Source: Methylorubrum extorquens
GTDB lineage: Bacteria; Pseudomonadota; Alphaproteobacteria; Rhizobiales; Beijerinckiaceae
NCBI RefSeq assembly: GCF_024169925.1
Contig: NZ_JALJXF010000001.1
Span: 2,114,001-2,178,000, forward strand
DNA: 64,000 bases
Direction: 5' to 3'
The notes under the pieces: model-generated
Told to the model about the DNA's origin: nothing
Database searches by the model: none
The model's input: only the letters and a program-made list of their open reading frames with translations
Position numbers and translations under genes: made by a program
In this document: piece by piece, positions 42,241-64,000 of the stretch
Layout: every line of letters begins with the position of its first letter
Position numbering within the stretch: position 1 is the stretch's first letter

Positions 42241-42242
42241 GA

Positions 42243-45411: not shown

Positions 45412-45481
45412 TTATTGATGTTGAATGCAAACCGGCGATCTGCGCTTCGTCTCCTATCTTGATTGTCGGGAGAGCGCCGTC

Positions 45482-46042: not shown

Positions 46043-46135
46043 TGCCGGCTGCCTGCAGCCATTGCAATCGACGGTGTTCGCAGGCGCGGGGCGGTCGTCT
46101 ACTGCCTGTGACGTAGCTTCTGTCCCGGCCTCTCC

Positions 46136-47134
46136 ATGACCTCGCATGCATCGGACGACGCAGCCACACCCGATGACATCCTCGATCCGCTCACGGAGCA
46201 GGCCCTCGAATGGCAGGTGCGCCTGCATTCGGGTGAAGATCGTGCAGCGGTTGAGCGAGCCTTCGAGCTTTGGAAGAACGCGGATCCGTCTCATCGCCAA
46301 GCCGCCGACCGGGCGGCCGAGCTTTGGCGTCTGCTCGGTGGCGCTTTGCCCAGGCGCGGGCGCGGCCCGCCCAAAAGCGCGATCGTCCTCCTGATCTGCG
46401 CCCTCGCCACCGGCGGGCTCCTCGCGGGCGGCGCCTTCGGGCCGCCCCGTTCCTGGCTTGCCGACGCACGTACTTCCGTCGGCGAGCGGCGGGAGATGGC
46501 GCTCTCCGATGGCACGCAGGTCGATCTCGACAGCGGCACGAGCTTCGACATCACGTTCACGGCCGACCGGCGGCAGCTGCGACTGTATACGGGGCGCATC
46601 CACGTGGCCGTGCAGCCGGACAAGACGCGCCCCTTCGAAGTGATCGCGGACGGCGGCAGTGCACGCGCCCTCGGAACAGCCTTCGACGTCGATCGCGAGG
46701 GAGGACGCACCAGTGTCCTCGTCACCGAGAGCGTCGTCCGGGTGCGGGCTATGGCCGAGCAGGACGCTGAGGCGGTCGACCTCCTCGCCGGCCAGGAGGT
46801 GAGCTACGCGGAAGAGAAGATCGGCCAGATCCGGCAGGTCGATCTGCGTGCTCGGACCGCGTGGCGGCAGGGGCATCTGGTCTTCGATGGCCAGCCCCTC
46901 GGCGAGGTTGCGACGGTGCTGACCCGCTATCGCCGCGGCCGCATCCTGGTGACGGACCGGAGCCTGGAGGCACTGCGCCTCACCGGCACCTTCTCGACGG
47001 CCGACAGCGACAGAATGCTCGATGCCATCGAGGTCGCCTTGCCGGTCCGGATCCTCCGGTTGCCGCTCCTGACGCTGATCCGCCCGGATCCGGCCCGCAT
47101 CGGGAAGGCAGGAGCGGGACGATCCATTCCGTGA
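46136..47134 (+). CDS. FecR-family anti-sigma regulator
   Basis: A 332-residue single-pass membrane protein. The N-terminal cytoplasmic DUF4880-type domain ('EQALEWQVRLHSGEDRAAVERAFELW') binds the sigma factor. One membrane helix lies at residues about 81-100 ('AIVLLICALATGGLLAGGAF'). The periplasmic FecR domain has 'RREMALSDGTQVDLDSGTSF' and a C-terminal STN-like part. It relays the signal from the receptor's STN domain. Spacing to the sigma gene is 93 bases. Confidence 0.93.
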   Translation: MTSHASDDAATPDDILDPLTEQALEWQVRLHSGEDRAAVERAFELWKNADPSHRQAADRAAELWRLLGGALPRRGRGPPKSAIVLLICALATGGLLAGGAFGPPRSWLADARTSVGERREMALSDGTQVDLDSGTSFDITFTADRRQLRLYTGRIHVAVQPDKTRPFEVIADGGSARALGTAFDVDREGGRTSVLVTESVVRVRAMAEQDAEAVDLLAGQEVSYAEEKIGQIRQVDLRARTAWRQGHLVFDGQPLGEVATVLTRYRRGRILVTDRSLEALRLTGTFSTADSDRMLDAIEVALPVRILRLPLLTLIRPDPARIGKAGAGRSIP

Positions 47135-47310
47135 TTGCCGGGCACCCCATTCTTCACTTCGGGCGATCCCCGTCGAGATCCGGCTTCCCGCGCAATGATA
47201 GGAAAATGTGATCGGTCCGGTGGGCATTCGGAGCGAGCCGTCGTCCTGGATGAAGAGACCGCCCACACGCCGGTCCCTCATCAGACCATCGTGCACGAAG
47301 CCCCGGCATC

Positions 47311-49779: not shown

Positions 49780-49811
49780 TGCACCGGCAGAGACTAAAAA
49801 GACTTTTATTG

Positions 49812-49854
49812 CGCCGGACTTTTGGTGTTTACCTAAAGTCCGGCGAGTTGTTTT
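49812..49854 (+). terminator. Rho-independent terminator of the receptor gene
   Basis: An 11-base perfect inverted repeat (CGCCGGACTTT at 49812-49822, complement at 49835-49845) is followed by AGTTGTTTT. It lies 33 bases after the receptor stop. Confidence 0.8.
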
Positions 49855-49999
49855 CAGTAATTGCAAATATTTTTATGAAATTTCTCCCTGCCTGGCACCC
49901 TGCACCTGTTTCGTTCAATAGCGCGCAAACCGCAGTAATCGGATTGCAGGCCGAAAGGGAATGTGCCCTCCCGATGTCCTAATGTCTCTGGTGTTCATT

Positions 50000-50212
50000 T
50001 CATCCAGCCTTTCGAAGTTGGATGTCTGGTCCCGGCTGGTGGAGCGGGTCTGACCTGAATCTGCCTGGGTCGGCAGACCATGCCTTGCAGATGGCTTCAT
50101 AGGGAGTGAGGCCCCGCAGGGTCTTCAGGCGGCGGCCAAAGTTGTAGGCGCTGACGAAGTCGGCCAGATGGGCACGAAGCTGTGCGTGGCGATCGTAATG
50201 ATAGCGCTTGTC
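50000..50212 (-). pseudogene. IS481-type transposase, C-terminal remnant
   Basis: Reading leftwards, about 65 codons encode the tail of a DDE transposase: 'LRAHLADFVSAYNFGRRLKTLRGLTPYEAICKAW' followed by 'PLHQPG'. I know this tail from IS481-family enzymes. The catalytic core is absent. At about 50212 it abuts an oppositely oriented IS3-type fragment, so this is a broken copy. Confidence 0.75.
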
Positions 50213-50671
50213 GCGAGGCGCGATGTGCTGGCCGAGGGCGTATCGTGCGGGCTGCGCCGCATCGAGCGGATCATGCGCGCGAACGCCTTGCGGGCGCGGC
50301 CGCAAGGCGGGGGGGGGCTGCCGAAGGACGAGGGTGAGCGGGCTGCCGCTTCGCCCGATCTCTTGGAGCGGCGGTTCGCGGCTGATGCCCCGAACCGGAA
50401 ATGGATCGCCGACTTCGCGTCTATCTGGACCGCAGAGGGCTGGCTCGACGTCGCTGCCTTCATCGACCTGTTCTCCCGCCGTGTCGTGGGCTGGTCGATG
50501 CAGGCCAGCATGACGGCGCAACGCGTCACGGATGCGCTCGTCATGGCGATCTGGCGCAGGGGCAAGCCGGATGCCTTGCTGCATCACTCGGATCAGGGTT
50601 CGCACTACACAAGCGAAGCCTGCCAGCGCCTGATGGCTGAGCACGGCGTGACTTGCTCGATGAAACGCGCA
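50213..50671 (+). pseudogene. IS3-type transposase OrfB, internal fragment
   Basis: About 140 codons of an integrase-core transposase: 'LRRIERIMRANALRARPQ', 'NRKWIADFASIWTAEGWLDVAAFIDLFSRRVVGWSM', and 'HHSDQGSHYTSEACQRLM', shown in pieces. The first two catalytic Asp residues are present (IADFAS, FIDLFS). The similarity ends just before the segment that should hold the catalytic Glu, and the N-terminus is missing as well. It is cut on the left by an IS481-type remnant and on the right by an integrase remnant. Confidence 0.8.
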
Positions 50672-50865
50672 TTCCATTCGACGTCTTTCACATCCCGACG
50701 ATGCCGCGCCTCCTTGCGGTCACGGGTGCCGAGCGATGTGAAAATTATGCTGCGGCCGATGGCAGCCACGCAGTCGTTAGGGACGCGTCGCCGGTAATGC
50801 CAGACACCGCCTCGGTCCTGAAGGTGGTGGTTTTTCGGCACCTCGTCGATGCACCTGTGTAGCAC
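50660..50865 (-). pseudogene. DUF6538-type integrase, N-terminal remnant
   Basis: Reading leftwards from the ATG at 50865, about 68 codons match the N-terminal domain of a phage-type integrase: 'HHLQDRGGVWHYRRRVPNDC', 'FTSLGTRDRKEARHRRDVKD'. The frame then runs into IS3-type sequence, so the catalytic domain is lost. It is a different integrase from the intact one at 51033, whose N-terminus is only loosely similar. Confidence 0.75.
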
Positions 50866-50909
50866 GTTTGTGCATCACTGTCGGGCGCTAAGGTGCTGAT
50901 CTTAAAAAG

Positions 50910-50946
50910 CCACCGGTTCCCCAGTGAATTGGGGGGAACCTGGTGG
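50910..50946. repeat. Inverted repeat upstream of integrase
   Basis: CCACCGGTTCCCC (50910-50922) and GGGGAACCTGGTGG (50933-50946) are complementary apart from one bulged base, with a 10-base spacer. It lies 90-120 bases before the integrase start. It could be an operator, an excisionase/integrase arm site or an old IS end. Confidence 0.6.
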
Positions 50947-51032
50947 AGCTGAGGGGAGCCTTACCCAAGGATCGGTTAACCCCTTCTACAACAACGAAGT
51001 CATTGTCCTTGCGTCCGTTTTGGGGGCGAGGC

Positions 51033-52520
51033 ATGGGTCTTAACCGGGTCTATTCCCTGGGCGAGTACCCTATGCCGCGCCGCGCCTCCGTCGATCGAGC
51101 CTACCTTGAGCAGCATGGCAGGCATTGGCGTGTCAGCGTGAACGTGCCTGCCGCAGTCAAGGACATCATCGGGCGACCGAAGCTTCGACACGATCTCGGC
51201 ACCGATTCCCTGCGGACCGCCAATCTTCTGAAAGGTCCCTACATCGCCCGCTTCAAGGCCCAGATCCAAGAGGCCCTCACCACGGTCGGTCGTCAGAAGC
51301 AGTCGACGACCCGGGAGGCGATGGAACTGGCGAAGTGGGCCCGGGAGGCCAAGGAGCGCAACACCTCGCGGGAGGACTGGGACGAGTACCATCAGATCAT
51401 CTCGGAACGGACCGTCGAGATCCGGACACGGAACGCCATGCCCGTCGAACTGCCTGCGATCGATGATGACGGCCCCGGGCTCGGATGGATCAACAAGCCG
51501 GAGGATGTCGCGGAGGCCCGGCGCTTCGGGCGCATTGCCTATCAGGCCGGGACTCCGTTCGCCGAGTTCCATGAGGAGTATTTGAAGGGATCCCAGGTCG
51601 CGGCCCGGACGAAGGCCGATGACGAACGATCTCTTCGGCTTCTCCTACAATGGCTCCAGAATGAGAATGTTGACCCAGAGATCGAGCGCATCACCCCTCT
51701 GCGCGCGCACGCCTTCGCAAAAAGATTGCCCACGCTCGCCGACGTCGCACCGGCGACATGCAACAAGTACCTGTCGCGGCTATCCTCGTTCTGGGCTTAC
51801 CTGGCAACCGTGACCGAGGTCGCCGCCTCGAATCCCTGGGTCGGCGTCGCTCTTCGGAAAACAGGCCCGAAGTCCGGCGAGGAAGAGCGTCCATTCACAG
51901 ACACTGAGGTCGCCAAGTTGCTGCTTGGGCCCGCCTCCCCCCACATGCTCGACCTCATGTACATCGGTGCACTGACCGGGGCGCGTCTCGACGCGATCGT
52001 AGACCTCAAGGTCCAGGACACCGCCAACCGCGTCATCCTGTTCCAGGCGCGCAAGACGGAGACGCACGCCCGCTACGTGCCGATCCACCCTCTTCTGGAA
52101 CCTGTCATCGCCAAGCGTTGCCAGGGCAAGGCTCCCGAGGACGACCTGTTTCCCGAGTGGCCGCCGGTGAGGAAGGTCGGCTCCATGCGCGAGCGCCCCT
52201 TCAAGGCTTCCAACCATTTCACCGATTACAGGCGTCTCGTCGGCGTGGACGAGGTCGTGGCAGGGAAGCGACGCGCCCGCGTGAACTTCCACAGCTTCCG
52301 GCGTTGGTTCATCTCGCGGGCCGAGCAGGCCGGGGTTGCGACCGCGATGATCTCCGCCATCGTCGGCCACAAGCACGGTTCGATCACACTGGACGTGTAC
52401 AGCGAAGGGACGACGATGCAGCGAGCCCGAAGGGCGGTCGCCAAAGTGAAGCTCCCTCCCCTCGACGGCAGTCCGATCCGTGAGATCCAGACAGTCCGCG
52501 CGCGAGTGCGGTCAGCATAA
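51033..52520 (+). CDS. Tyrosine recombinase (island integrase)
   Basis: A 495-residue site-specific recombinase. The N-terminal domain (about residues 14-80, 'EQHGRHWRVSVNVPAAVKDIIG') resembles DUF6538. A SAM-like core-binding domain ('FHEEYLKGSQVAARTKADDERSLRLL') and the catalytic domain follow. Catalytic residues are all visible: Arg in 'LTGARLDAIVDL', His-x-x-Arg in 'FHSFRRWFI', His in 'VGHKHGSI' and the nucleophile Tyr in 'LDVYSEG'. The ATG at 51033 follows GGGGGCGAGG; 51072 (MPRRASVDR) is an alternative. It probably mobilised the Ter island to its right. Confidence 0.92.
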   Translation: MGLNRVYSLGEYPMPRRASVDRAYLEQHGRHWRVSVNVPAAVKDIIGRPKLRHDLGTDSLRTANLLKGPYIARFKAQIQEALTTVGRQKQSTTREAMELAKWAREAKERNTSREDWDEYHQIISERTVEIRTRNAMPVELPAIDDDGPGLGWINKPEDVAEARRFGRIAYQAGTPFAEFHEEYLKGSQVAARTKADDERSLRLLLQWLQNENVDPEIERITPLRAHAFAKRLPTLADVAPATCNKYLSRLSSFWAYLATVTEVAASNPWVGVALRKTGPKSGEEERPFTDTEVAKLLLGPASPHMLDLMYIGALTGARLDAIVDLKVQDTANRVILFQARKTETHARYVPIHPLLEPVIAKRCQGKAPEDDLFPEWPPVRKVGSMRERPFKASNHFTDYRRLVGVDEVVAGKRRARVNFHSFRRWFISRAEQAGVATAMISAIVGHKHGSITLDVYSEGTTMQRARRAVAKVKLPPLDGSPIREIQTVRARVRSA

Positions 52521-52566: not shown

Positions 52567-53682
52567 CTACGCCGAGGCCCGGCTGGCTTCCGGAGATCCG
52601 ATCTTTCGTTCGACGGCTTCCGATAGGCCCAGACCGGCATTTCGAGCGGAGTCTCCGCGATTGGCAACGACGCTGTGGATGAAGGCGATCACGATGACAG
52701 CACCACCATAGGCAGAGATCAGCCACTCCGGCACGTGCGTCACGGCGGCGATGAACATGAAGGCGGACAAGCCTCCAATCGCCCAGAACGCGCCCGGCTC
52801 CAAGTAGCGGTACTCTGCCAGCGACTTGGTGTCGAAGAACAGAAGCGTCAGTGAGCGTACGAAAACCGCACCGACGCCAAGCCCCACAGCCACGACGAGA
52901 ATGTTGTTCGTGATGGCGAAGGCGGCGATCACGCCATCGAACGACATGCTGGCATCGAAAATTTCCAGGTAAAGGAACATGCCGAGGCCGCCTGTCGCCA
53001 GGGCCTGTCCGCCAGTGGCACCCGACCTCTCCTGCATACGAAGGTCGATTGCCTCAAGGCCTTCCTTGATGAGGTCGACGGTGATGTGTGTCCCGATGCC
53101 GGCCATCGCGGCAACGAAGAACGCGACCCCCTTCCCCTCGGGCATCAGGTAGGCAGTGAAGCCGGCCGCCACGCCCGTGATCAGAATCTGAATGCCTTCC
53201 AGATGGCCGAGATGGCCCAGCACGGACTCGACCCCTGGGAGCCAATTCCCCTCGCGCTCGGAGTCGATGAAGAATTTCAGGAAGATCATCATCAGGAACG
53301 CGCCGCCGAAGCCCGATACGATCGCGTGACTGGAGATCAGGATCTGCGCGAACCGTCCCGGATCGGCGTAGGCCAAGCGCGAGGCCTCTGACAGGGAAAG
53401 GCCACCGAGCCAGCTGACGATCTGGATGGGTAGATAGAAGCGCATCCCGAAGACAGCGATGAAGATGCCGACCGTGATGAAAGCCTGCCGCCAGAACGGT
53501 GACATCCGCTCCATCACCTTGGCGTTGACGATGGCGTTATCAAAACTGACAGCCAATTCCATGATGGCCAGGACCATCGCCAAGGGTAAGAGTGCCACGC
53601 CTCCTTCCGCGAAAGCGAGGGCAACGAACATCAGGGCCGACAGCCCGATGGCGTACCGGAAATACTTCAAATTCGCGGCCAC
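52567..53682 (-). CDS. DUF475 (TerC-like) integral membrane protein
   Basis: A 371-residue protein with about nine membrane helices. 'LAIMELAVSFDNAIVNAKVM' and 'YLEIFDASMSFDGVIAAFAIT' each carry the acidic 'SFDN/SFDG' motif seen in TerC-family proteins, which are proposed metal transporters or membrane anchors of Ter complexes. It is the last gene of the leftward ter operon, 88 bases after the previous gene, and is convergent with the integrase (46-base gap). Confidence 0.92.
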   Translation of the reverse strand: MAANLKYFRYAIGLSALMFVALAFAEGGVALLPLAMVLAIMELAVSFDNAIVNAKVMERMSPFWRQAFITVGIFIAVFGMRFYLPIQIVSWLGGLSLSEASRLAYADPGRFAQILISSHAIVSGFGGAFLMMIFLKFFIDSEREGNWLPGVESVLGHLGHLEGIQILITGVAAGFTAYLMPEGKGVAFFVAAMAGIGTHITVDLIKEGLEAIDLRMQERSGATGGQALATGGLGMFLYLEIFDASMSFDGVIAAFAITNNILVVAVGLGVGAVFVRSLTLLFFDTKSLAEYRYLEPGAFWAIGGLSAFMFIAAVTHVPEWLISAYGGAVIVIAFIHSVVANRGDSARNAGLGLSEAVERKIGSPEASRASA

Positions 53683-53770
53683 GACGGCCTCCGCATGTTA
53701 CTGGTTCGGCGCATGCCGGGGCAGCTTAAGATTTTACTCGGCCCCGATTTGGTTACGCTTGCGCCTGCCG

Positions 53771-54403
53771 TTACGGGGGCGGCCTGTAAGCGATCATTCG
53801 GCCGGAGGCATCGAGGTCGACATAGGCCCGAGCGCCGCGTCGACCCTGGACGCGAAAGACCATGGCATCCCGCCGGACATCGTCGAGCTTGAGTTCGTTG
53901 CCGACCGCGTCGACGAACGTTTCCTCGCGACCTCCAACATCACGGATGCCATGGGCGTCCATGAAAGCAAGGTTGTCTCGTTCGAGGGCGAACGCGCGTA
54001 CCCGCCTTCCTCGCTGCGCCAAGCCGACGAGAAGCCCGATCACGGCCGAAGCCGCATGGACCAAGAGGGCGATACCGAGGAGCCCTCCAGCACCCGAATT
54101 CGGCCGTCCCGGCTGTGGCTGGCCCAGGACGGCGACCAGGATCACACAGAGGGTCAAGCTTCCCGCCGCAGCGAGCATCGCACCGATTACGCGGAGGACC
54201 GATGGCGAGTGGTGCCCCCTCGATAAATTCCACGCTGCGTAGCCAGACCCTCCGGCCACCGCCACGAAGGCGATGACCGGCAGGATCCATTCCTTGCCCT
54301 TACGGTAGATGTCGCGCCCTGCGCTCCAGCCGAAGCCAGCGGCTGCCGAACCTGCTGCGATCGCCGCGAGGCTACGCAGCGCTCCTGGAGAAGACGCGGC
54401 CAC
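53771..54403 (-). CDS. Ter-associated four-helix membrane protein
   Basis: A 210-residue protein if started at the GTG at 54403, which falls 10 bases after the TerD stop; the frame is open through the TerD gene, but that part is only a shadow. A signal-like N-terminus is followed by helices at about residues 30-50, 65-85 and 95-120 ('VLRVIGAMLAAAGSLTLCVILVA', 'GIALLVHAASAVIGLLVGLA'). A soluble C-terminal domain (about 80 residues, 'DAVGNELKLDDVRRDAMVFRVQGRRG') ends it. No family recognised. Placement within the ter operon suggests a membrane partner of TerD/TerB. Confidence 0.75.
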   Translation of the reverse strand: MAASSPGALRSLAAIAAGSAAAGFGWSAGRDIYRKGKEWILPVIAFVAVAGGSGYAAWNLSRGHHSPSVLRVIGAMLAAAGSLTLCVILVAVLGQPQPGRPNSGAGGLLGIALLVHAASAVIGLLVGLAQRGRRVRAFALERDNLAFMDAHGIRDVGGREETFVDAVGNELKLDDVRRDAMVFRVQGRRGARAYVDLDASGRMIAYRPPP

Positions 54404-54413
54404 CGTTCGGCTC

Positions 54414-54989
54414 TCAGGCGTTGATGCCGTAGGACCGGGCAAGGTCCCCGAGGCCGCCCGCGAACCCTTGTCCGACAGCCTTGAACTTCCACTCGCCGTT
54501 GTGGCGATAAACCTCGCCGAACACCATCGCGGTCTCGGTCGAGGCGTCTTCCGATAGATCGTACTTGGCGAGTTCCGCGCCCCCGGCTTGGTTGACCACG
54601 CGGATGTAGGCGTTTTGCACCTGCCCGAAATTTTGGCTTCTCTCTTTCGCTTCATGGATCGTCACGGCAAACACGAGGCGCGTAATCGCTTCGGGAACCT
54701 TGGCAAGATCGATCTTCACGACTTCGTCGTCGCCGTCGCCCTGCCCCGTCGTGTTGTCGCCCATATGCTCGACTGAACCATCGGCAGACTTCTTGTTGTT
54801 GTAGAAGATGAACGCCGCGTCACCGGCACACTTCCCGTCGGCTCCGAGCAGGAACACGGAGGCATCCAGGTCGAAGGGCTTGCCGTCCGAGACGCGGTTA
54901 TCCCACCCGAGGCCAGCGAGAATGGCAGCGAGGCCGGGGGCTTCCTTGGAGAGCGAGACGGTGCCCCCCTTGCTCAGGTTCACAGGCAT
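54414..54989 (-). CDS. terD: TerD family protein
   Basis: A 191-residue canonical TerD: '[20 protein letters not shown]', 'LGWDNR...[11 protein letters not shown]', the calcium-binding segment '[19 protein letters not shown]', '[17 protein letters not shown]' and the tail '[17 protein letters not shown]'. TerD proteins bind calcium and are core parts of tellurite, phage and stress resistance systems. It is the second of two tandem paralogues (97 bases apart), whose sequences match over the full length but differ at many positions. Confidence 0.95.
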
Positions 54990-55086
54990 GGTGCGATCCC
55001 TTCTTGGGTCGTGCGTCGGATGACTGGTGGGACGGGGGCGGACTGGGGCGCGCTCCAGAAGAGCGCGATGGTGGCAAAACCGGCAA

Positions 55087-55665
55087 TCAGCCGACGTTGA
55101 TGCCGTACTGGGTTGCCATGGCCTTCAGGCCACCCGCGTAGCCTTGTCCGATTGCCTTGAACTTCCACTCGCCGCCGTGGCGATAGATTTCGCCGAACAC
55201 CATCGCGGTCTCCGTCGAATAGTCTTCGCCGAGATCGTAGCGGGCAATCTCGCGCCCGGTGTCCTCGTTGACCACACGAATGAACGCGTTCTGGACCTGA
55301 CCGAAATTCTGGCCTCGCTCGCTCGCCTCATGGATCGTCACGGTGACTGCAAGCCTCTGCACATCGGAGCCGACCTTGCCGAGAACGACGCTGATCTTCT
55401 CGTCGTCCCCGTCACCCTCGCCGGTGCGGTTGTCCCCGTGGTGCTTCACCGACCCGTCGGCCGATTCCTTGTTGTTGTAGAAAATGAACCCTGCGTCATT
55501 CGAACACCGGCCGGCATCGCTGAGCATGAAGAGCGAAGCGTCGAGGTCGAAATCCTTCCCATCCGTCTTGCGATTATCCCAGCCAAGCCCGATTAGGATC
55601 TTGGAAAGATTTGGTTCTTCCTTGGACAGGCTGACATTGCCGCCCTTGCTGAGGCTCACGGCCAT
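55087..55665 (-). CDS. terD: TerD family protein (paralogue)
   Basis: A 192-residue TerD domain protein, colinear with the one at 54414: '[20 protein letters not shown]', '[11 protein letters not shown]', the acidic calcium motif '[12 protein letters not shown]', '[16 protein letters not shown]' and '[21 protein letters not shown]'. In the Enterobacteria systems the equivalent pair is TerD and TerE. It is encoded between terB and the second paralogue in the leftward operon. Confidence 0.95.
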
Positions 55666-55800
55666 CTTGATCCCCTTTTCTCGTGAATTGCTGGGAGCGC
55701 CCTCGGAGCGCCCGTCGTTGACAGGACCCGATCGTGGCCCTGGACCCGGAACGATACTCTGGTGAGGAGACGCCTCCTCCAGGGTCCCCTCTTCACCCTT

Positions 55801-56256
55801 TCAAAGTTCGAAGTCGGCCGGCGACAGGCCAAGCTCATGGCAGGCTTTACGCACCACGTCCTTCTCCTTGGCGTCGAAGGTGCCGTCCGCACCGCCGACC
55901 ATGATGCCGATACGGATCAGCTGGCGGGCCGCGGCTGGGTCATTGCGAAGTGCCCCGACGTACTTCATCGCCTCTGCGAGACCGATTTCGGCGTCGAAGT
56001 CATACTTGCCCTTCAGCTCATCGAAGAGCGGCTGCACGGTGTCCCATTTGAAAGCCTTCAAAGCCTCCAGGTTCTGGAACACGCCATAAAGCTTGCGCTT
56101 CTCGTCCTGGTCGATAGTTCCGTCCGCCGCGGCGATGGCCACCCCGATGGCGACTGCGCCCTGCATGAACTTTCGATTATTGAAGCGGGCGATTTCGCCC
56201 TTGAGCGCAGACGATGCTGCCTCGCCTTGTGCCTTGATCCAATTCAGTGCGCTCAT
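55801..56256 (-). CDS. terB: TerB family tellurite-resistance protein
   Basis: A 151-residue all-helical protein with the duplicated acidic turns of TerB, 'AIAAADGTIDQDEKRKL' and 'MVGGADGTFDAKEKDVV', which bind metal ions. TerB links TerC-type membrane proteins to cytosolic TerD proteins. It ends 135 bases before the first TerD gene; that gap contains a GGAGACGCCTCC-type hairpin. Confidence 0.94.
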   Translation of the reverse strand: MSALNWIKAQGEAASSALKGEIARFNNRKFMQGAVAIGVAIAAADGTIDQDEKRKLYGVFQNLEALKAFKWDTVQPLFDELKGKYDFDAEIGLAEAMKYVGALRNDPAAARQLIRIGIMVGGADGTFDAKEKDVVRKACHELGLSPADFEL

Positions 56257-56321
56257 CGTTCCGCTATCCCTCGAAACGTTGCGTGTGTCCGCCGCGAAAA
56301 CTTGTCAGGCGGCGAGTTAAT

Positions 56322-57548
56322 TCAGTTCTTCGAACCCGCTTTCCAGCGTAGCCCCCAGCCATAAGCGGTATCCATGTCGTCGTGCCCTCGGAAGTACGCG
56401 ACCTCCCGGGAGATCCGCATCCGGCCTGCGTCGTTCTCGATCAACGCCACGGCGCACATGCGTTTGGCGTTCGATCCCTCTTCCATACGAACTTCGACGG
56501 GGCCTTCGCCCGGGACCCGCACGGTCACCACACCGTCGGTGCGAGCCCAGTTGGGCACGCCGTCGTAGATGAAAGCGAAAACGAGCAGGCGCTGGATGTT
56601 GGTGAAGTACCGGCCGTTCACCCGCATCCACTCGCCGTCGACGGAAGCGCCGGAGCGGTCGTCGGAATCGAGGGCCACGAATGGCTCCCGGTCGAGCCGG
56701 CCGAAACTGTTCCCCAGCGCCTGGACGCAACCGATCGATCCGTCGGTCAACTCGTAGAGGCAACCGAGATCCAGGTCGATCCCGCCACCACCGCGCTGGA
56801 GCAGCCCGGAAAGTCCGCCGGTCTTTGCCCTGCTCCAATTGAGGTTGACCGTCACATCTCCGTAGTCCGACCGCTTCTCCAACGAAACGGTCGGACGTTC
56901 CTTGGTCAAGCTGACCTTGGAAAGATTGATCGGCTTCGGTGTCGGTGGCGAGACGGGTGCAGGGGCGACAGGTTGCGGCTTGGGTGCCGGCGGCGGAGAT
57001 GCAACTGCGGCATCCTCCACGTCGACGCCGTAGGCACTCGCAAGAGAGGCAAGGCCGCTGGCAAAACCCTGTCCGACCGCCTTGAACTTCCAGCCTGCGT
57101 CCCGGCGGTAGAGTTCGCCGAGAACCAACGCGGTCTCGCCGTTGGAGGCCGGAGGTGGAATGAATGCGACAGCATCGCCTTGTGCCGATTGAACGGAGAT
57201 GCGGAGGCCTGCGATCTTTCCGAAATGCATCCCGGTTTCCCGGGCACCGTGTATCGTCCCGCTGAATGCCACCCGCTGAACGCGATCCGGGAGTAGCGCC
57301 GTCTTGATGTGGAAGACGGAAGCGTCACGGTCGGGCACATGGCCGGGTACGCGCTCGAAGCGAACGGCGCCATCGCCTTTCTGGCCATAGAAAATCATGT
57401 CCGCGTCACCCGACACGCGCCCGTCCGCGCCAAGCAGGAAGGCGGCTGCGTCGATTTCGTCGAGACCCGGTGTCGAAGCCCATTCCACGACAACCATGAG
57501 GTCGCCGCTGGGCACAGGGGCGTTCCCGCCCATCGTGAGAGTGGTCAT
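56322..57548 (-). CDS. TerA-like protein with two TerD-type domains
   Basis: A 408-residue protein. The first TerD-like domain (residues about 1-180) begins 'TLTMGGNAPVPSGDLMVVVEW' and ends '[24 protein letters not shown]'. A Pro/Ala-rich linker (about 186-215) follows. The second domain begins 'VSLEKRSDYGDVTVNLNW' and ends 'AYGWGLRWKAGS'. This layout is that of TerA. The acidic calcium motif of canonical TerD is replaced by 'QKGDGAVRFERVPG' in domain 1. Start at 57548 follows AGGAAGAG. Encoded 28 bases after the variant TerD gene. Confidence 0.9.
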   Translation of the reverse strand: MTTLTMGGNAPVPSGDLMVVVEWASTPGLDEIDAAAFLLGADGRVSGDADMIFYGQKGDGAVRFERVPGHVPDRDASVFHIKTALLPDRVQRVAFSGTIHGARETGMHFGKIAGLRISVQSAQGDAVAFIPPPASNGETALVLGELYRRDAGWKFKAVGQGFASGLASLASAYGVDVEDAAVASPPPAPKPQPVAPAPVSPPTPKPINLSKVSLTKERPTVSLEKRSDYGDVTVNLNWSRAKTGGLSGLLQRGGGGIDLDLGCLYELTDGSIGCVQALGNSFGRLDREPFVALDSDDRSGASVDGEWMRVNGRYFTNIQRLLVFAFIYDGVPNWARTDGVVTVRVPGEGPVEVRMEEGSNAKRMCAVALIENDAGRMRISREVAYFRGHDDMDTAYGWGLRWKAGSKN

Positions 57549-57576
57549 GTCGGCGCTCTTCCTGAGGGGACCCGGC

Positions 57577-58164
57577 TCAGAGACATTCCCGGGCAGGCCC
57601 GACAAGATCGGCCGCCGTACGTCCGTGTGCGGACCGGCCTATCGCCTGCATGTCCCACGAGCTGCCGGCCCTACGGAGGACGGCCATGACGACGCCGGTG
57701 TGGCGCCCCTTCTCCGCCAGAGTGAAGCGAGCGAGCTCCCTGCCATTGGATTGGTCCACGACCCGGCAGAAGGCGTTGTCGACCTCATCGAAGGTCTGGC
57801 CGCGAAAGGAGTTCACGGTCAGAACGAGGGCGTCGATCTCCGCAGGTAGGCGCGTGGTGTCGATATCGATCACCTCATCGTCGCCATCGCCGTCGCCCGT
57901 CAGATTGTCGCCATTGTGGTGGATCGCGCCACCAAGGATGTCGAGGCGGCCAAAATAGGCGGTATCGACATGGCGCCCGCCTGCGAAGGCTAGGCAAGAG
58001 GCATCCAAGTCGATGGAATCGCTGCCGCCGCCGCCAAAAAGCTTGCCTAGGAACCCGCCACCTTTCTTCGCGGGATCCCACCCGAGGCCCATACTGATCC
58101 TTGCGAGACTTGGAGCTTGCTTGGTGAGCGAGATCGAACTGCCCTTGGTCAACGAAACGGCCAT
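57577..58164 (-). CDS. Variant TerD family protein (TerX/TerZ-like)
   Basis: A 195-residue TerD-domain protein and first gene of the leftward operon. N-terminal 'MAVSLTKGSSISLTKQAPSL' and the calcium motif 'TGDGDGDDEVIDIDT' are conserved. A Gly-rich insert ('KKGGGFLGKLFGGGGSDS', about residues 35-52) replaces the usual short loop, and the C-terminus reads 'RAGSSWDMQAIGRSAHGRT' in place of the 'WKFKAVGQG' tail. This form resembles TerX/TerZ-type members that act as distinct subunits. Confidence 0.88.
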   Translation of the reverse strand: MAVSLTKGSSISLTKQAPSLARISMGLGWDPAKKGGGFLGKLFGGGGSDSIDLDASCLAFAGGRHVDTAYFGRLDILGGAIHHNGDNLTGDGDGDDEVIDIDTTRLPAEIDALVLTVNSFRGQTFDEVDNAFCRVVDQSNGRELARFTLAEKGRHTGVVMAVLRRAGSSWDMQAIGRSAHGRTAADLVGPARECL

Positions 58165-58496
58165 CGCGCCCCAACCCCGATACGGCTCAGGGATCGCTAC
58201 CCACGGCCGCTTGCGGGCGAAACCTACTTGGTTGTATTGTCCTGTCAAGCTGCTTACTGGCGTTGTTTTTCTAAATTCACACAAGCACTGCGATGTTTTA
58301 ATGATCATTTGATAGGCGCATCGACCCAATTGTCAAAACGACACCAGGAGCCCGATTGCAAAAATGCATCTATTTAATGAATTTGATCGCTGCTACGCGC
58401 GAGCATTGCTTCTTGATGTAACGATATGGCATCGCGTTGCTGGTCGTGGGGCATCAAACGCGGCGATGGATCACTTTCGTCGCCTGAGGGCGTAGC
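58165..58496. promoter_or_regulatory. Divergent promoter region of the two ter operons
   Basis: About 330 bases with no gene, markedly AT-rich (notably 58225-58320 and 58350-58440). It lies between the first genes of the leftward TerD/TerA operon and the rightward protease/metabolite operon, so it should hold both promoters. I could not identify a defined operator. Confidence 0.6.
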
Positions 58497-59621
58497 ATGG
58501 GCACGAGCCTCATTATCGGCCAGAACCGTCCTATCGCGGCCCCCCGCGTCCAGTTCGAGGCAATAGGCCTCCCATCAGGCTTCGCTCTGGCAGCGATCCC
58601 GCAGGGCCCGTCGCCAGCTCTGCCTTGGCATCTTGGCTCGCCACCACGTCATTATCTGCTGGATTTCGGCGCTGGACGTCGTGAGGTCGATCTGGAAGCG
58701 CTCGGAAGCGGCACGGACAGCGTTCTGCTCGTTGTGTACGCGGTGCGTGGCGTGCGAACGTTATCTGCTGCCGCCGAAGCTCGGTTCACCGTCGACGGAT
58801 CCGTTCTGACGCCTGCGGCCGATGTCGGGCGCCTTACCGAGATCGTCTTTGCCCGCCTGTATCGGCATGGGGGTGGCTGGAAGCTGCGAGCACTCTCCGA
58901 AGGCACCTCGCGCGGGCTTGCCTACCTGGGGCGGCTCCATGGCGTCATCATCGACGACGATGGCGAGCCGGTGCCGCTTCCGCCAGTTCCACCCCCATCC
59001 GACGAGAGGTCTGCCGGAGCCCCCGCCTGGACCGGTACCGGCTTTCTCGTAGCTCCGGGGCTGATGATCACCAATGCTCATGTCGTCGAAGGCGCGCGCA
59101 CTCTCGTAGCCGCGGGGTTCGAGGGGCGCACGTCGGCGGAGCCTGTCATCATCGATGCCAATTGCGACCTCGCGCTGGTGCGCCTGCAGGCCGATGTCGC
59201 TGGCACACCCTTGCCGTTCCGGACCGGTCACGGTCCATCTCTTGGCGAGACGGCGATCACCTTGGGCTATCCACTCGCCGGTTTCCTGGGGTCGGGTCCG
59301 CAGGTCGCGAATGGATCGGTATCCGGGCTCCTCGGTCCATCGGAGGATGCGCGGATCCTGCAGATCACGACGCCAATCCAAGGTGGGTCGAGCGGGGGGC
59401 CTGTCCTCGACACCCGAGGCCGCGTCATCGGCGTCGTAACGGCTTCGCTCCAAGGAGCGCAGAACGTGAACTTCGCTGTACGGGGCTGCCTCGCCCAGGC
59501 CCTCGTCGAGGCAGCCGGCCTCAGCGCTTTGTTGGCGAACGACGACCGGCCGGAGGCTGATGTGGCGGGAGTCGCCCGTATCGCACGCGGTGCCGTGTGG
59601 CGATTGGAGGCGAGACGGTGA
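58497..59621 (+). CDS. TerD-like domain fused to trypsin-like serine protease
   Basis: A 374-residue protein. Residues 1-150 follow the TerD layout in degenerate form: 'YLLDFGAGRREVDLEALG', then 'IVFARLYRHGGGWKLRALSEG', closely matching the canonical tail '[15 protein letters not shown]'. The acidic calcium motif is absent. A Pro-rich linker (157-172) leads to a chymotrypsin-fold protease (about 178-345) with the complete triad His195 ('ITNAHVVEG'), Asp224 ('NCDLALVRL') and Ser299 ('GGSSGGPVLD'). There is no signal peptide, so it is predicted to be cytosolic. First gene of the rightward operon. Confidence 0.9.
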   Translation: MGTSLIIGQNRPIAAPRVQFEAIGLPSGFALAAIPQGPSPALPWHLGSPPRHYLLDFGAGRREVDLEALGSGTDSVLLVVYAVRGVRTLSAAAEARFTVDGSVLTPAADVGRLTEIVFARLYRHGGGWKLRALSEGTSRGLAYLGRLHGVIIDDDGEPVPLPPVPPPSDERSAGAPAWTGTGFLVAPGLMITNAHVVEGARTLVAAGFEGRTSAEPVIIDANCDLALVRLQADVAGTPLPFRTGHGPSLGETAITLGYPLAGFLGSGPQVANGSVSGLLGPSEDARILQITTPIQGGSSGGPVLDTRGRVIGVVTASLQGAQNVNFAVRGCLAQALVEAAGLSALLANDDRPEADVAGVARIARGAVWRLEARR

Positions 59622-59746
59622 CGGTCATAACCCGTACCGCAATTTTCGAGGGGACGCCCTTCCAGATGCCGTTTGGCACCGCACACGTGGCGGAAGCGGA
59701 GCCTGCCGCTTGCGTACGGCCGGACGACAGAGTGGACGCCTCATGA
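59618..59746 (+). CDS. Putative 42-residue microprotein, coupled at both ends
   Basis: An open frame of 42 codons plus stop exactly fills the gap between the protease and the DUF1523-like gene. Its GTG overlaps the protease stop (GTGA at 59618) and its TGA overlaps the next ATG (ATGA at 59743). The product, about 'TVITRTAIFEGTPFQMPFG' then an Ala/Glu/Asp-rich tail, has no membrane segment. The double four-base overlap is the pattern of translationally coupled operon genes and argues that it is real. No homology known to me. Confidence 0.55.
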   Translation: MTVITRTAIFEGTPFQMPFGTAHVAEAEPAACVRPDDRVDAS

Positions 59747-60309
59747 AAATTCAAGGTCCCCGAAGCAAGGTCCGCCGCCGCATCGCTCTCGCTGCGGCGA
59801 CCGTGATCATCATGGCCCCTATAGGGCTTGCGTTAGACTTTTACCTGCCGTCCCATCGCCTCGTTCGGGTGCTGAACTCGGACGTTTATCTGCAAGGGCG
59901 TGGCAAGAAGGATCGAACGACGGGGGTCTACCAGATCTTCACCGAAGATCCGGATACACGGCGACAGCACGTATACCACAACGAGGATACCGGCTGGGGC
60001 TTTCCATTCTACTTCAAGTTCAACTCTGCTGATGTCCAGTCGACCGCAGCGTCAATCGCCTCCGACGCATCACAGGACGGCAACTACGCCCTCGTTACGT
60101 CCTATGGCTGGCGGGTGAACCTGCTTTCGATGTTTCCCAATGTCACGGCTATCCGCCGCGTCCCGCGTGGCTACGTGCCGGTGCCCTGGTTCAACATCGC
60201 ATTCTTTACAATCCTCGCTGCCGTGATCGCTTGGCTCGCCTACCTGTACCGCCGCTGGCGCCACCTGCGGATCGCGCCGCCGGAAGCCGTTCGCAGGATC
60301 CCCCAATGA
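59743..60309 (+). CDS. DUF1523-like membrane protein
   Basis: A 188-residue protein with two membrane helices, about residues 11-30 ('RIALAAATVIIMAPIGLALDFYL') and about 150-170 ('WFNIAFFTILAAVIAWLAYLY'). A periplasmic domain between them begins 'LPSHRLVRVLNSDVYLQ', as in the DUF1523 family, and includes 'YQIFTEDP' and 'VYHNEDTGWGFPFYFKFNSAD'. Start at 59743 overlaps the microORF stop, and its stop overlaps the next ATG. Role in the Ter system unknown; it could connect envelope state to the cytosolic module. Confidence 0.82.
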   Translation: MKIQGPRSKVRRRIALAAATVIIMAPIGLALDFYLPSHRLVRVLNSDVYLQGRGKKDRTTGVYQIFTEDPDTRRQHVYHNEDTGWGFPFYFKFNSADVQSTAASIASDASQDGNYALVTSYGWRVNLLSMFPNVTAIRRVPRGYVPVPWFNIAFFTILAAVIAWLAYLYRRWRHLRIAPPEAVRRIPQ

Positions 60310-61466
60310 TCGAGGTCGCCATCGAGCAGCCCACCACGGATTTCCGCGTCGACTTCCATGCGGACCTGCCCACGGGGCGCATTGCGGTTGAAGTCCATGC
60401 CTCGGATGTCCCGCCCGAGGATCTTTTCGGCTTCGCCCAACGGCGGAATCCGAAGCGAGCGTTCCTCTTCGTGTCATGCGTACTGGGCCGTCATATCCCA
60501 GTTGCCCCCTCCGTCATGCGGTCGACCTTTGCAGGCTTAGCGGCGAAGGTCTCCTTCGACCTTCCCGGACCCGTGTTGGTGATGGGGATGGCCGAGACCG
60601 CCATCGGCTTGGGTGCCGGCGTGCACAGGGAGTGGTGTCGTCTCACCGGGCGGGACGATGCGGTCTATCTCCCTAGCACGCGACACCCGCTCGGCGGTCC
60701 GATCCTCGCCCGGTTCTCCGAGGACCACAGTCACGCGACGTCCCACCTCGTGCACCAACCCGTTGCCGAGACCCTGCGCGACATGGTTGCCAAAGCGCGG
60801 TCCCTCATCCTCGTGGATGACGAAATCACCACCGGCCGGACGCTTTCCAACCTGCGGGCGTCACTCAACGAAGCGGGCCTCGGAAGCATCCGCAGGGTCG
60901 TGCTCGCCACCATCACGGACTGGTCCGGCGGTAAGGCCGGCGAAGATTGGGGGGAGCGGGTCGACATCGCGAGCCTGCTTTCGGGACGCTTTACTTGGAC
61001 GCCATGCGCCGGTGCATCCGTCCCGTGCATGCCCCACGTCGACGTGACGGCGTCCGGTACCTTCCCTTTGAACCCAAGCCGTGATTGGGGGCGGTTGGGG
61101 ATCCACCGTCATCCCGACGTCGCGGCCGTCCCCGACTTGAAGTCCGGCGGCCGCATCCTCGTACTGGGAACGAGTGAGCATGTCTGGCGCCCCTTCCTCA
61201 TAGCCGAGGCGCTGGAAGCGGCAGGGTGTCATGTCCGTTTCTCGGCCGTGACGCGTTCGCCCATTGCCCTTGGCCATGCCATCGGCTCGGCCCTGTGTTT
61301 TCGGGACTCGTACGGCATCGGGATCCCGAACTTCGCCTACAACGTCGATCCGGCCGCGTACGACCACATCTTGCTTTGCACCGAAACTGCCGCGGGCTGT
61401 GTCGATCCGGTATTCGTGCGCGCTCTCGGCCCTGCCCTCACCATCCTGTCCGAGGCCGCCTCGTGA
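60306..61466 (+). CDS. Ter-operon phosphoribosyltransferase with TRSP domain
   Basis: A 386-residue protein. The PRTase domain (residues about 30-215) has the PRPP-binding motif 'ILVDDEITTGRTL' (168-180) and a conserved 'EDHSHATSHLVHQP' segment. The C-terminal TRSP domain (about 270-386) has 'RILVLGTSEHVWRPFLIAEAL', 'FSAVTRSPI' and 'FAYNVDPAAYDHILLCTET'. PRTase-TRSP proteins are a hallmark of the Ter-linked pathway predicted to assemble a nucleoside-like compound. Coupled by ATGA to the gene before and GTGA to the HAD gene after. Confidence 0.9.
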   Translation: MIEVAIEQPTTDFRVDFHADLPTGRIAVEVHASDVPPEDLFGFAQRRNPKRAFLFVSCVLGRHIPVAPSVMRSTFAGLAAKVSFDLPGPVLVMGMAETAIGLGAGVHREWCRLTGRDDAVYLPSTRHPLGGPILARFSEDHSHATSHLVHQPVAETLRDMVAKARSLILVDDEITTGRTLSNLRASLNEAGLGSIRRVVLATITDWSGGKAGEDWGERVDIASLLSGRFTWTPCAGASVPCMPHVDVTASGTFPLNPSRDWGRLGIHRHPDVAAVPDLKSGGRILVLGTSEHVWRPFLIAEALEAAGCHVRFSAVTRSPIALGHAIGSALCFRDSYGIGIPNFAYNVDPAAYDHILLCTETAAGCVDPVFVRALGPALTILSEAAS

Positions 61467-62263
61467 TCCGCCCCCTCGTTCTCGTGGATCTCGACGACAC
61501 GCTGTTCCAATCGGGACGGAAATGCCCGTCCGCGGAGGCTGGGCATCTTACGTTGACCGCGGAAGCGTCCAACGGGCGACACTCCTACGCGACGCGCGCT
61601 CAATCCAATCTCTTCATGTGGCTCAGCGAGACGACCGAGCTCGTTCCAGTCACGGCGCGAGGAAGCGAGGCGTTCACGCGGGTCAGGCTTCCATTTCCGC
61701 ATGGTGCCGTTCTCGCGAATGGCGCTGTCGTGCTGTTGCCGGGCGGGCAGGTGGACACCGCATGGCGTGCCGAAATCGCGCGAGGGCTTGCCGCCGCAAG
61801 AAGGGACTTGGATTTCCTCCTCGACCGCGGGCGGCAAATCGCTCTCGAAACCGGACTAGAGCTCCGCTCGTGGATCGTCGAAGAGGACGGGATCGGAGCC
61901 TACACCGTCTTCAAGGACAACGCCGACGAGAACGGAAATGGGCTCGCCGCACTCGCCGATGCGCTAGCCGCCCCGGCGGGGTGGACCCTCCACCGCAACG
62001 GCAACAACATGGCCTACATCCCGGCCTGCATCTCCAAGCGCTTGGCGTGCGAACGCCTCGTGGATGACGCGCGCCGTTCGGATCCAGGGCGGTTGATTGT
62101 CGGGATCGGCGACTCGATCTCGGATTTCGGTTTCATGGCACTCTGCGACCTGATGGCGACGCCTTCTCGTGGCCAGTTGGCCGACCTGCTGGCCGGCATC
62201 TTCGTGGAACAGGATCCAGCTTCTCGGCAGGCTGGGCGGCCGCCCCTCGATAACCCGACGTAG
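61463..62263 (+). CDS. HAD-superfamily phosphatase of the Ter biosynthetic module
   Basis: A 266-residue HAD hydrolase starting with GTG inside the PRTase stop. Motif I is 'LVDLDDTLFQSG' (Asp9 nucleophile, Asp11 acid), motif II Thr in 'VPVTARGSEAF', and motif IV 'IVGIGDSISDFGFM'. A C2-type cap containing 'GNNMAYIPACISK' suggests a sugar- or nucleotide-phosphate substrate. In this context it would remove a phosphate from the product of the phosphoribosyltransferases. Confidence 0.9.
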   Translation: MIRPLVLVDLDDTLFQSGRKCPSAEAGHLTLTAEASNGRHSYATRAQSNLFMWLSETTELVPVTARGSEAFTRVRLPFPHGAVLANGAVVLLPGGQVDTAWRAEIARGLAAARRDLDFLLDRGRQIALETGLELRSWIVEEDGIGAYTVFKDNADENGNGLAALADALAAPAGWTLHRNGNNMAYIPACISKRLACERLVDDARRSDPGRLIVGIGDSISDFGFMALCDLMATPSRGQLADLLAGIFVEQDPASRQAGRPPLDNPT

Positions 62264-62277
62264 GAAGCGGTGACGCA

Positions 62278-63381
62278 ATGAACGCCCGCAACGTCGTTGC
62301 CGCGCATGCCGCCGGATTCCACGGTAGCTACGCCCCGCTCGATGTCGAGTTTCTGCTCAGACCGATTGCGATCACGCCTGTCGGCATCGCGGAGAAGGAG
62401 CGGCTCATTCAGTCCGGGCAGCGGCACTACTCGGAGATGCTCAGCGCGGAGACAGCCCCCTCACCCGCCTACGCCGCACTCTACCACTCCGCTCTCGATG
62501 CCGGTGCGCGACGCTTCGGCCGAGACACGGCCGCGCTTGCACTCACCTTGTTCCAGGGAGCGGGGCGGCCCGTGACGCTGGTCAGCCTCGTGCGGGCGGG
62601 CGTCCCCCTCGGTGTCCTCCTGCGACGCGCGCTCGTCGAACTCGGAGCCGACGTGGCTCACTTCGGCATCTCGATCGTGCGCGATAGAGGCATCGACGCG
62701 GTCGCCCTCGACCATGTCCTCGCCCGCCGACCGGCCGATGGTCTCGTCTTCGTCGATGGGTGGACGGGCAAGGGAGCCATTGCGAGCGAACTTGCGGCGA
62801 GCCTTGCCGGGTATCCCATCCTCTCCCCGCGGCTCGTGACCCTAGCCGACGCGGCCGGACGGGCATGGTTGTCGGCCTCGGGGGAGGACTGGCTCATCCC
62901 ATCCGGCATCCTCGGAGCTACGGTTTCTGGCCTGACCAGCCGAACCGTGCTCAATGACGCCCTTGTGGGGCCCGGTCAGTTTCACGCCTGCGCCGTGCAA
63001 TCGCATCTTGCCGAACACGATGTCTCCCGCACCTTCGTCGATACGGTATGGCCCCACGTCCAGGTTGCCCTCGGCACGGTTGGGCCGGCGAAGTGGACGG
63101 ATGCAGATAGGTTCGCGGCGCGATCCGCCGCCGAGGAAGCCGTCGCCTCGGTCGTCGCCAGGTTCGGGGTCATGGACCGCAACCGGATCAAGCCGGGCAT
63201 CGCCGAGGCGACGCGGGCGGTCCTGCGGCGCGTTCCCGAGCGCGTCCTGATCACCGATCCCGGCGAGCCGGATCTCGCTCCCCTGGTGGCCCTTACAAGC
63301 TCATCCGGCGTCACACTCGACGTGCTTGGTCCTGCCCTCGGCCCCTACAGGGCGATCACCTTGATCCGGAAGGTCGACTGA
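62278..63381 (+). CDS. StiP-type phosphoribosyltransferase/PELOTA-like protein
   Basis: A 367-residue protein of the family once called cysteine protease StiP and later reassigned as a PRTase. 'LVSLVRAGVPLGVLLRRAL' (about 102-120) and the PRPP-loop-like 'LVFVDGWTGKGAIASELA' (about 156-173) support the PRTase assignment. The C-terminal part ('RVLITDPGEPDLAPLVALTSSSGVTLDVLG', in pieces) resembles a PELOTA-type RNA-binding fold. It starts 14 bases after the HAD gene and ends one base before the next ATG. Confidence 0.85.
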   Translation: MNARNVVAAHAAGFHGSYAPLDVEFLLRPIAITPVGIAEKERLIQSGQRHYSEMLSAETAPSPAYAALYHSALDAGARRFGRDTAALALTLFQGAGRPVTLVSLVRAGVPLGVLLRRALVELGADVAHFGISIVRDRGIDAVALDHVLARRPADGLVFVDGWTGKGAIASELAASLAGYPILSPRLVTLADAAGRAWLSASGEDWLIPSGILGATVSGLTSRTVLNDALVGPGQFHACAVQSHLAEHDVSRTFVDTVWPHVQVALGTVGPAKWTDADRFAARSAAEEAVASVVARFGVMDRNRIKPGIAEATRAVLRRVPERVLITDPGEPDLAPLVALTSSSGVTLDVLGPALGPYRAITLIRKVD

Positions 63382-63382
63382 C

Positions 63383-64000
63383 ATGGCCCCCGACGCACCA
63401 ACGTTGCGCCAGGTCCACCCCTACGCACTCGGGGCGACCCTCTACGTACCGATGATTCATGCAAACGCGGCCGACGTCGCCCTCGGCCGAAAGTTGCCGG
63501 GGCTTCGCTCGGTGGTTCTCTGTCTTGAGGATGCCGTCGCAGACAATGACGTTGCTGAGGGGCTCCTCCGCCTCTCGAAGCTTTTGTCGGACCTTCGGAA
63601 TTCAGAACGCAATCATGTGGCTACCCCGCTCGTGTTCGTGCGACCGCGCAACCTTGAAATGGCCTTTGCCCTCGCCGGACTACCCGGCATCGAGTCCTTG
63701 GACGGTTTCGTCTGCCCAAAGGTCAGACCTGGGCAGGTCAAGGCTTGGGCAACCGTGGTTTCAGGAACTACGCTGCGGCTGATGCCGACCCTTGAAACCG
63801 CGGAGATCCTCGACCCCGTCGCGGTGCGCGACCTGCGCGACGAACTGACTGCGGACGCCGCTGGACGGATCCTGGCTCTGAGGGTGGGGGGGAACGACCT
63901 CATGGCTTGCCTCGGGCTGCGCCGTAGCCGCGGTCGGACCGTCTATGACGGCCCGCTGCGGAGCGTGCTCGCCAATCTGGTGAACCTGATGGTCCCGGCG
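63383..64000 (+). CDS. HpcH/HpaI aldolase/citrate lyase (CitE-like) protein, partial
   Basis: At least 206 residues of a TIM-barrel lyase, running off the window. Visible: 'VVLCLEDAVADND' near the N-terminus (metal/CoA region of CitE-like enzymes), 'RPRNLEM' with substrate Arg, 'DGFVCPKV', 'LMPTLETAE' with the metal-binding Glu and 'ALRVGGNDLM'. Such an aldolase accompanies PRTase-TRSP, HAD and StiP genes in other Ter operons. An ATP-grasp ligase, usually part of the set, would be expected just beyond the right edge. Confidence 0.88.
   Translation, partial: MAPDAPTLRQVHPYALGATLYVPMIHANAADVALGRKLPGLRSVVLCLEDAVADNDVAEGLLRLSKLLSDLRNSERNHVATPLVFVRPRNLEMAFALAGLPGIESLDGFVCPKVRPGQVKAWATVVSGTTLRLMPTLETAEILDPVAVRDLRDELTADAAGRILALRVGGNDLMACLGLRRSRGRTVYDGPLRSVLANLVNLMVPA

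Follow-up and report, generated by a model that had tools for sequence, protein, structure and literature searches.

The DNA analysed here, hereafter the window, is a 64,000-nucleotide stretch of a Methylorubrum extorquens genome (contig NZ_JALJXF010000001.1, positions 2,114,001 to 2,178,000), and towards its right end it enters a genomic island integrated at a tRNA-Ala gene and carrying two divergent ter operons. The operons form a Ter system with the familiar divergent layout, in a version that includes a TerD-HtrA fusion protease and a DUF1523 gene and for which no Ter ATP-grasp gene was found. The genes and the region between the operons are listed below, with profile matches and identities to IncHI2 plasmid proteins in brackets.

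52567..53682, minus strand: DUF475/TerC-superfamily membrane protein (PF04332 5.3e-82, PF03741 8.6e-14)
53771..54400 (approximate; start uncertain), minus strand: membrane-protein-like gene without a Pfam family
54414..54989, minus strand: TerD-family protein (PF02342 5e-85; 66% to IncHI2 TerE)
55087..55665, minus strand: TerD-family protein (PF02342 1.9e-85; 65% to IncHI2 TerD)
55801..56256, minus strand: TerB (PF05099 2.7e-21; 38% to IncHI2 TerB)
56322..57548, minus strand: TerA with a TerD domain (PF02342 8.8e-35; 44% to IncHI2 TerA)
57577..58164, minus strand: TerZ-like TerD-family protein (PF02342 1.4e-43; 52% to IncHI2 TerZ)
58165..58496, no strand: divergent intergenic region of 332 bp, the position of the ATP-grasp gene in several related loci
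58497..59621, plus strand: TerD-like domain fused to a DegS/HtrA-like serine protease (Trypsin_2 2.8e-24, TerD 26.0 bits)
59597..59746, plus strand: micro-ORF of 49 aa with a GTG start (open frame)
59743..60309, plus strand: DUF1523 protein (PF07509 3.9e-38)
60306..61466, plus strand: phosphoribosyltransferase PRTase_2-TRSP (PF15609 5.4e-56, PF12500 1.2e-16)
61463..62263, plus strand: HAD-like phosphatase (motif DLDDTLF; start codon at 61463 inferred)
62278..63381, plus strand: StiP-PELOTA (PF11202 1.2e-92, PF15608 8.9e-23)
63383..64411, past the window end at 64000, plus strand: CitE-like C-C bond lyase (PF15617 4.7e-54; whole gene 4.3e-89)

Genes by which a Ter system is recognised are present: several TerD-family proteins with TerA and TerB, a TerC-superfamily membrane protein (DUF475 and TerC in one protein, with no BLASTP match to IncHI2 TerC at 1e-4), and an operon of PRTase_2-TRSP, StiP-PELOTA and the CitE-like lyase. 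Profile matches bear out the gene list of an initial annotation, made from the sequence alone, for the recombinase, three TerD-type proteins, TerA, TerB, DUF475/TerC, the fusion, DUF1523, PRTase_2-TRSP, StiP and the lyase. The HAD protein on that list has no family match (none in Pfam at E 1, none in NCBIfam at 0.001); it carries the DLDDTLF motif, which we take to be of HAD type, and is 35% identical to the IncHI2 gene at the same position and 46.7% to its counterpart in locus L042. The list omitted the membrane-protein-like gene, which tblastn matches in three other loci (34% in L042, 39% in L043, 95% in L237), and counted as an operon gene the micro-ORF, which had no convincing match in 14 related loci (best E 0.062) and is probably not a gene. 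The divergent region contains one promoter-like site against 0.5 expected and, as inverted repeats, only one 73% palindrome. Among the literature matches listed for DUF1523, no title dealt with ter.

The left edge of the element is marked by two further features.

51072..52520, plus strand: tyrosine recombinase (integrase; PF00589 3.9e-8)
50000..50865, strand not assigned: mobile-gene remnants (IS3-type transposase pieces and an N-terminal piece of another integrase; profile matches)

The attachment (att) repeats anticipated by the initial annotation exist as an exact 21-bp pair, at 50937-50957 on the plus strand and at 70970-70990 (L005:6970-6990). The right copy, 7 kb beyond the window end, spans the 3′ end of a tRNA-Ala(CGC) gene (70974-71049, minus strand), and within the window the repeat gives one match at up to 3 mismatches against 0/100 shuffles. 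The element between the repeats measures 20,033 bp (50937-70969). Its recombinase is intact, lies at the left end and reads inward from the left repeat; the open frame begins at 50943 and the first likely ATG is at 51072. Three broken mobile genes had been reported beside it: an IS3-type rve match (2.3e-24) and a DUF6538 integrase N-terminus (5.4e-17) uphold two of them, the second rve fragment is weak (E 0.0028, under the family cut-off), and all sit left of the left repeat, outside the element. The element thus combines an integrase, direct repeats that overlap the 3′ end of a tRNA gene, a patchy distribution and an unusual composition, and that this is a tRNA-Ala-integrated genomic island is nearly certain. 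Integrase relatives occur in 32/111 genus genomes (E 1e-30, own genome counted). Among 29 of their loci, examined with flanks of up to 1.5 kb on either side, an exact 17-bp att core lies beside the integrase in eight, and the four nearest relatives (76, 70, 56 and 53% identical) all have it; the relative in G020 lacks the core and carries an internal stop.

The tRNA-Ala flank was matched in 59/59 genus genomes, weakly in G081. When the site was compared in 29 relatives whose locus was fetched (with up to 1.5 kb of flank, less in two), 28 proved to have sequence unrelated to the element's right end from about 71 bp left of the tRNA onwards. The exception, G015 (L126, 1727-4657), which belongs to another species, has 2.9 kb of the right end in common at 93.8% and at the same tRNA-Ala site, a stretch that covers a TIR gene and a lipase (there two overlapping frames) and no ter genes. 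A left-flank block, 40200-43400, has matches in 11 genomes, and its distance to the tRNA-Ala, worked out for three of them, is 27.6 kb here, 27.0 kb in G026, 41.2 kb in G075 and 130.0 kb in G017, so that the gap is a variable region, neither empty nor full. The block lies on another contig than the tRNA-Ala in G008 and G069, as does a piece of it in G015, and its matches are weak in G009, G018, G007, G006 and G025.

The ter genes are sporadic. StiP occurs in 1/61 genomes of a sample made up of this genome, 36 other genus members and 24 of the order, the one being this genome, and in 8/298 family genomes (seven over the cut-off), this genome being the sole genus member among them; TerD occurs in 4/111 genus genomes. 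In a class-wide sample, PRTase_2 was over the cut-off in 5/385 genomes, with matches at E 0.001 in 39/385. StiP was found on 2,568/72,556 plasmid records, no near-identical copy of the ter block was found on plasmids, and a search of viral contigs returned one match, weak and partial. Genome G017 (L237, 7071-12951) holds 5.9 kb at 92.9% identity to the integrase-to-terA half of the island, with a broken integrase, DUF475, the membrane-protein-like gene, both TerD, TerB, TerA and the last 24 TerZ residues, at a site about 1.5 Mb or more away from its tRNA-Ala. Since this half copy includes the integrase, integrase and ter genes have travelled together.

Composition sets the element apart: its GC content is 63.6%, compared with 70.3% in window positions 1-43000 and 69.4% right of the tRNA, and GC at third codon positions (GC3) is 70.4-79.7% in 16 element genes versus 89.6-94.0% in three flanking genes. 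The stretch to its left, 43001-50936, is also at 63.7% GC, so the element lies within a larger variable region. That stretch contains TonB-receptor and PepSY genes, plus frames that look sigma-factor-like and FecR-like by eye; lying between the conserved flank and the att repeat, it may stem from an earlier insertion at this hot spot. Right of the lyase gene follow, in order, an IS630-type transposase (so labelled on DDE_3 and HTH matches), a KfrA_N protein, two family-less genes, a DUF2235/Tle1-like lipase, a TIR protein and the tRNA-Ala(CGC). Horizontal acquisition, proposed in the initial annotation, is well supported by the att repeat in tRNA-Ala, the integrase, the foreign composition, the sporadic distribution and the half copy in a related species; the signs named there as speaking against it, namely the block in all relatives, no att repeats and core-like composition, were looked for and none was seen.

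The most distinctive gene of the second operon encodes the fusion protease. Its protease domain is DegS-like, with the Deg fold and an intact serine-protease triad. It differs from DegS/HtrA proteases by an N-terminal TerD-like domain, by giving no Pfam match to PDZ at 0.001 and by having no signal peptide or membrane anchor that could be seen by eye; without a PDZ match it is HtrA-like and is not classed as HtrA. The TerD match reaches 26.0 bits against a cut-off of 25.3 and covers a C-terminal part only. The acidic motifs of TerD are taken to bind metal, and both are absent from this degenerate domain.

The fusion is not unique to the island: a TerD-protease fusion was already tabulated in 2008 (PMC2605481), and we found it also in S. 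kostiense, in L042, on two Pseudomonas megaplasmids and in G689. The initial suggestion of a proteolytic arm outside the classical set holds against the IncHI2 locus. A scan of genome contigs placed the fusion with other ter genes only in L042 and L043 among the best 80 of 216 confirmed loci; the remaining 78 were dropped, most matching the protease domain only and L110 matching from residue 86. A tblastn search matched 303 plasmid records, but in just eight did a single place cover 80% or more of the query, and the search also picked up generic HtrA proteases.

We propose, from gene content and domain comparison, that in the island's variant Ter system a metal-binding Ter complex would recruit or activate a docked DegS-like fusion and the second operon would make a nucleoside-like product, a reading to which we give about an even chance. 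TerD, TerZ, TerA and TerB, with DUF475 and the small membrane-protein-like product, would assemble at the membrane into a stress complex that binds metal. The fusion is predicted to be cytosolic, and its TerD-like domain, having no acidic motifs, would be a docking part and not a metal sensor; under envelope or metal stress the complex would recruit or activate its protease. The PRTase, HAD-like protein, StiP-PELOTA and lyase would yield the nucleoside-like product, the ATP-grasp step being absent here or supplied by another enzyme. That the fusion is a dedicated protease arm of the Ter system is plausible, though less likely than not. Its general form we consider rather unlikely: TerD-HtrA fusions would be a dedicated cytosolic Ter output, a DegS-like enzyme gated by docking on metal-loaded TerD/TerZ and not by PDZ or membrane peptides, spread by mobile islands and by megaplasmids and, in Alphaproteobacteria, partnered by DUF1523 as well.

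The protease might instead be a general quality-control enzyme riding in the operon of a tellurite/metal-resistance and envelope-stress module. The fusion's protease domain belongs to the widespread HtrA type, and according to PMC8779313, terC plus terD (or terE) of Pseudomonas citronellolis SJTE-3 are the minimal tellurite-resistance pair among terZABCDE, and terC with terD confers tellurite resistance on Escherichia coli; the SJTE-3 plasmid also carries the fusion locus. A dedicated role is favoured by the conservation of the N-terminal region and by gene position. Fusion relatives were drawn from the 8000 candidates sharing most words, and the alignment comprised the window's fusion, P0001-P0019 and P0021-P0024, leaving out P0020 (a fragment) and P0025-P0109; 22 of these 23 relatives have an N-terminal region that can be aligned with the TerD-like part of the fusion, while P0003 has lost most of this region. 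The fusion gene is first or second in its operon in 5/6 loci that have it, directly behind the ATP-grasp gene in S. kostiense and the two Pseudomonas megaplasmids. We regard the quality-control explanation as unlikely.

The initial annotation called the Ter set complete-looking, which is not supported: no Ter ATP-grasp gene turned up in the locus, in the 7 kb by which the element runs past the window, or in the genome. With four Ter ATP-grasp proteins as queries, the best tblastn E-value in the whole element was 0.55, whereas L042 and L154, the positive controls, gave 1e-47 or better, and a family search of the genome (PF15632) gave no match that we count as a Ter ATP-grasp. One 38-bit family match over the cut-off, at 304 kb, was rejected (28% over 117 residues to a Ter ATP-grasp), and another ATP-grasp family match reached 24 bits within a 1220-residue frame; the family search was also positive in 13/14 control genomes and is by itself unspecific.

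One explanation of the gap is that the island is a decaying passenger, its second operon giving no finished product and the island being kept by integration and not by benefit. Besides the ATP-grasp result, the IS630-type transposase adjoining the lyase gene and the truncated copy in G017 fit this. Yet the other ter reading frames are open along their full length, identity to G017 is 98-99% for the two TerD proteins against 92.9% for the DNA stretch, and 9/11 module-bearing genomes checked, this one included, have no strong Ter ATP-grasp match; strong matches came only from G170 and G140, the latter's on another contig than the module. The lack is thus common in these Alphaproteobacteria and no proof of decay, and with no strong match in 8/10 other module genomes the ATP-grasp gene is a usual part of the module, not a defining one. 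Decay seems to us an improbable account, on a par with the quality-control one.

How optional the fusion itself is can be read from 15 loci that carry the biosynthetic genes, the island's own and 14 more (matches by tblastn at E 1e-4; L149/L156 of G167, with a weak StiP match containing a stop, left out). DUF1523 is present in eight, the fusion in six and ATP-grasp in five, four of the other 14 having been retrieved with the fusion as query. For the remaining ten, which StiP or PRTase_2 alone retrieved, all alphaproteobacterial and three of them short stretches, the numbers are six, one and one. In G689 (L197, 6788-11511) the set is rearranged, with TerB, DUF1523 and the fusion on one strand and PRTase, HAD-like and StiP genes on the other.

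Several observations weigh against the docking reading. The fusion's presence in just one of those ten loci makes it an optional part. Precomputed Pfam lists TerD for only 16/23 aligned relatives, and the N-terminal domain of the structural model was unmatched to TerD by fold, DegS-like and similar proteases filling the listed matches. That the acidic motifs bind metal in TerD is an assumption here, and without ATP-grasp the pathway could be non-working. On the island side, the empty site expected among relatives was not found in strict form in the 29 compared, and 21/29 integrase relatives' loci show no 17-bp att core within the fetched stretch, so more distant integrase relatives may use other sites.

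A third explanation is abortive infection or phage defence with the protease as effector; the initial annotation proposed a stress or phage-defence module. Whelan 1995 reportedly linked phage inhibition to ter on R478. The element also has a ThsB-like TIR gene and a lipase, and other defence models (RT-Protease_XI, Avs1b) likewise contain trypsin-like domains. An excerpt of PMC8115787 links non-Klebsiella ter to phage inhibition. The PADLOC matches of the fusion cover its protease domain only, however, and none was obtained for the other five ter proteins submitted; phage defence is the least probable of the explanations considered, and quite improbable in our judgement.

The TIR gene and then the DUF2235/Tle1-like lipase gene occupy 68178-70645 (L005:4178-6645), past the window. 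The TIR protein matches ThsB1 at 2.5e-129 over nearly its whole length (PADLOC) and the lipase scores 2.7e-62; the two frames as listed overlap, and a start at the more probable ATG would leave about 18 bp between the genes, as expected of one operon. No ThsA was found among the neighbours scanned, with no dedicated ThsA search made. DUF2235 was an annotated neighbour in 0/5 plasmid TIR relatives, and TIR relative H50 adjoins a 'phospholipase D-like domain-containing anti-phage protein'. Of the six relatives of the lipase, one of them from an unannotated record, one has a Mov34/MPN gene as neighbour and another has nucleotidyltransferase and SLATT genes, neighbours that we presume to be CBASS partners. 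Literature matches listed for Thoeris, ThsB and DUF2235 contained no DUF2235. The two genes are a possible defence pair of TIR signal and lipase effector.

To our knowledge, how Ter proteins confer tellurite, colicin and phage resistance has been open for decades. If TerD-HtrA fusions are indeed a dedicated Ter output, Ter stress sensing would work through cleavage of a target protein as well as through production of a metabolite. A protease physically linked to a TerD-like domain and encoded beside the remaining Ter genes, in settings as far apart as Methylobacterium-like bacteria and Pseudomonas megaplasmids, would offer a testable handle on Ter action through its partner and substrate, and the same gene order with ATP-grasp in Chenggangzhangella and without it in the island is a natural comparison. 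Ter function is called unclear in an excerpt of PMC8115787. Excerpts of other papers report higher tellurite resistance after transfer of the IncP-2-like pTTS12 (PMC9537497), a tie, drawn by the authors, between ter and envelope stress in Klebsiella (PMC9933665), and an increase of predicted tellurium-resistance genes in Serratia CRISPR immunity (PMC8754663).

Compared with the IncHI2 ter locus (Escherichia fergusonii pEF01, L252), the island has the same divergent order in both operons except for the place of TerC/DUF475, and nine of its proteins match at 35-66% identity. The IncHI2 second operon opens with ATP-grasp, where the island has the TerD-protease and DUF1523, and goes on with DUF4236, TerW, VWA, phosphatase and kinase genes, whereas the island continues with the IS630 transposase after the lyase. 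IncHI2 has TerC within its operon; the island has DUF475 instead, at the operon's far end. A divergent two-operon ter layout is also described for Klebsiella in passages of PMC8115787, and together with this collinearity and the frequency of StiP on plasmids it indicates a kind of Ter system already known.

The IncP-2-like Pseudomonas megaplasmids (P. citronellolis pRBL16 and P. juntendi pHNGDW697-1) share with the island the TerD-trypsin fusion, the PRTase, HAD-like, StiP and lyase genes and TerZ/A/B/D/D. They differ in that all genes run in the same direction in one block, which includes ATP-grasp, a second HAD and TerC, and no DUF1523 or DUF475 was found in them by tblastn. In Chenggangzhangella methanolivorans (L042) the twelve genes that run from the membrane-protein-like one through to the lyase keep the same order and orientation at 34-67% identity. 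Between TerZ and ATP-grasp it has a small Y1/IS200-like transposase-domain protein (L042:8518-8943; 1.6e-7). Unlike the island, this locus shows no DUF475 in its 21-kb stretch, and between its TerZ and protease genes lies one for ATP-grasp (PF15632 6.7e-37).

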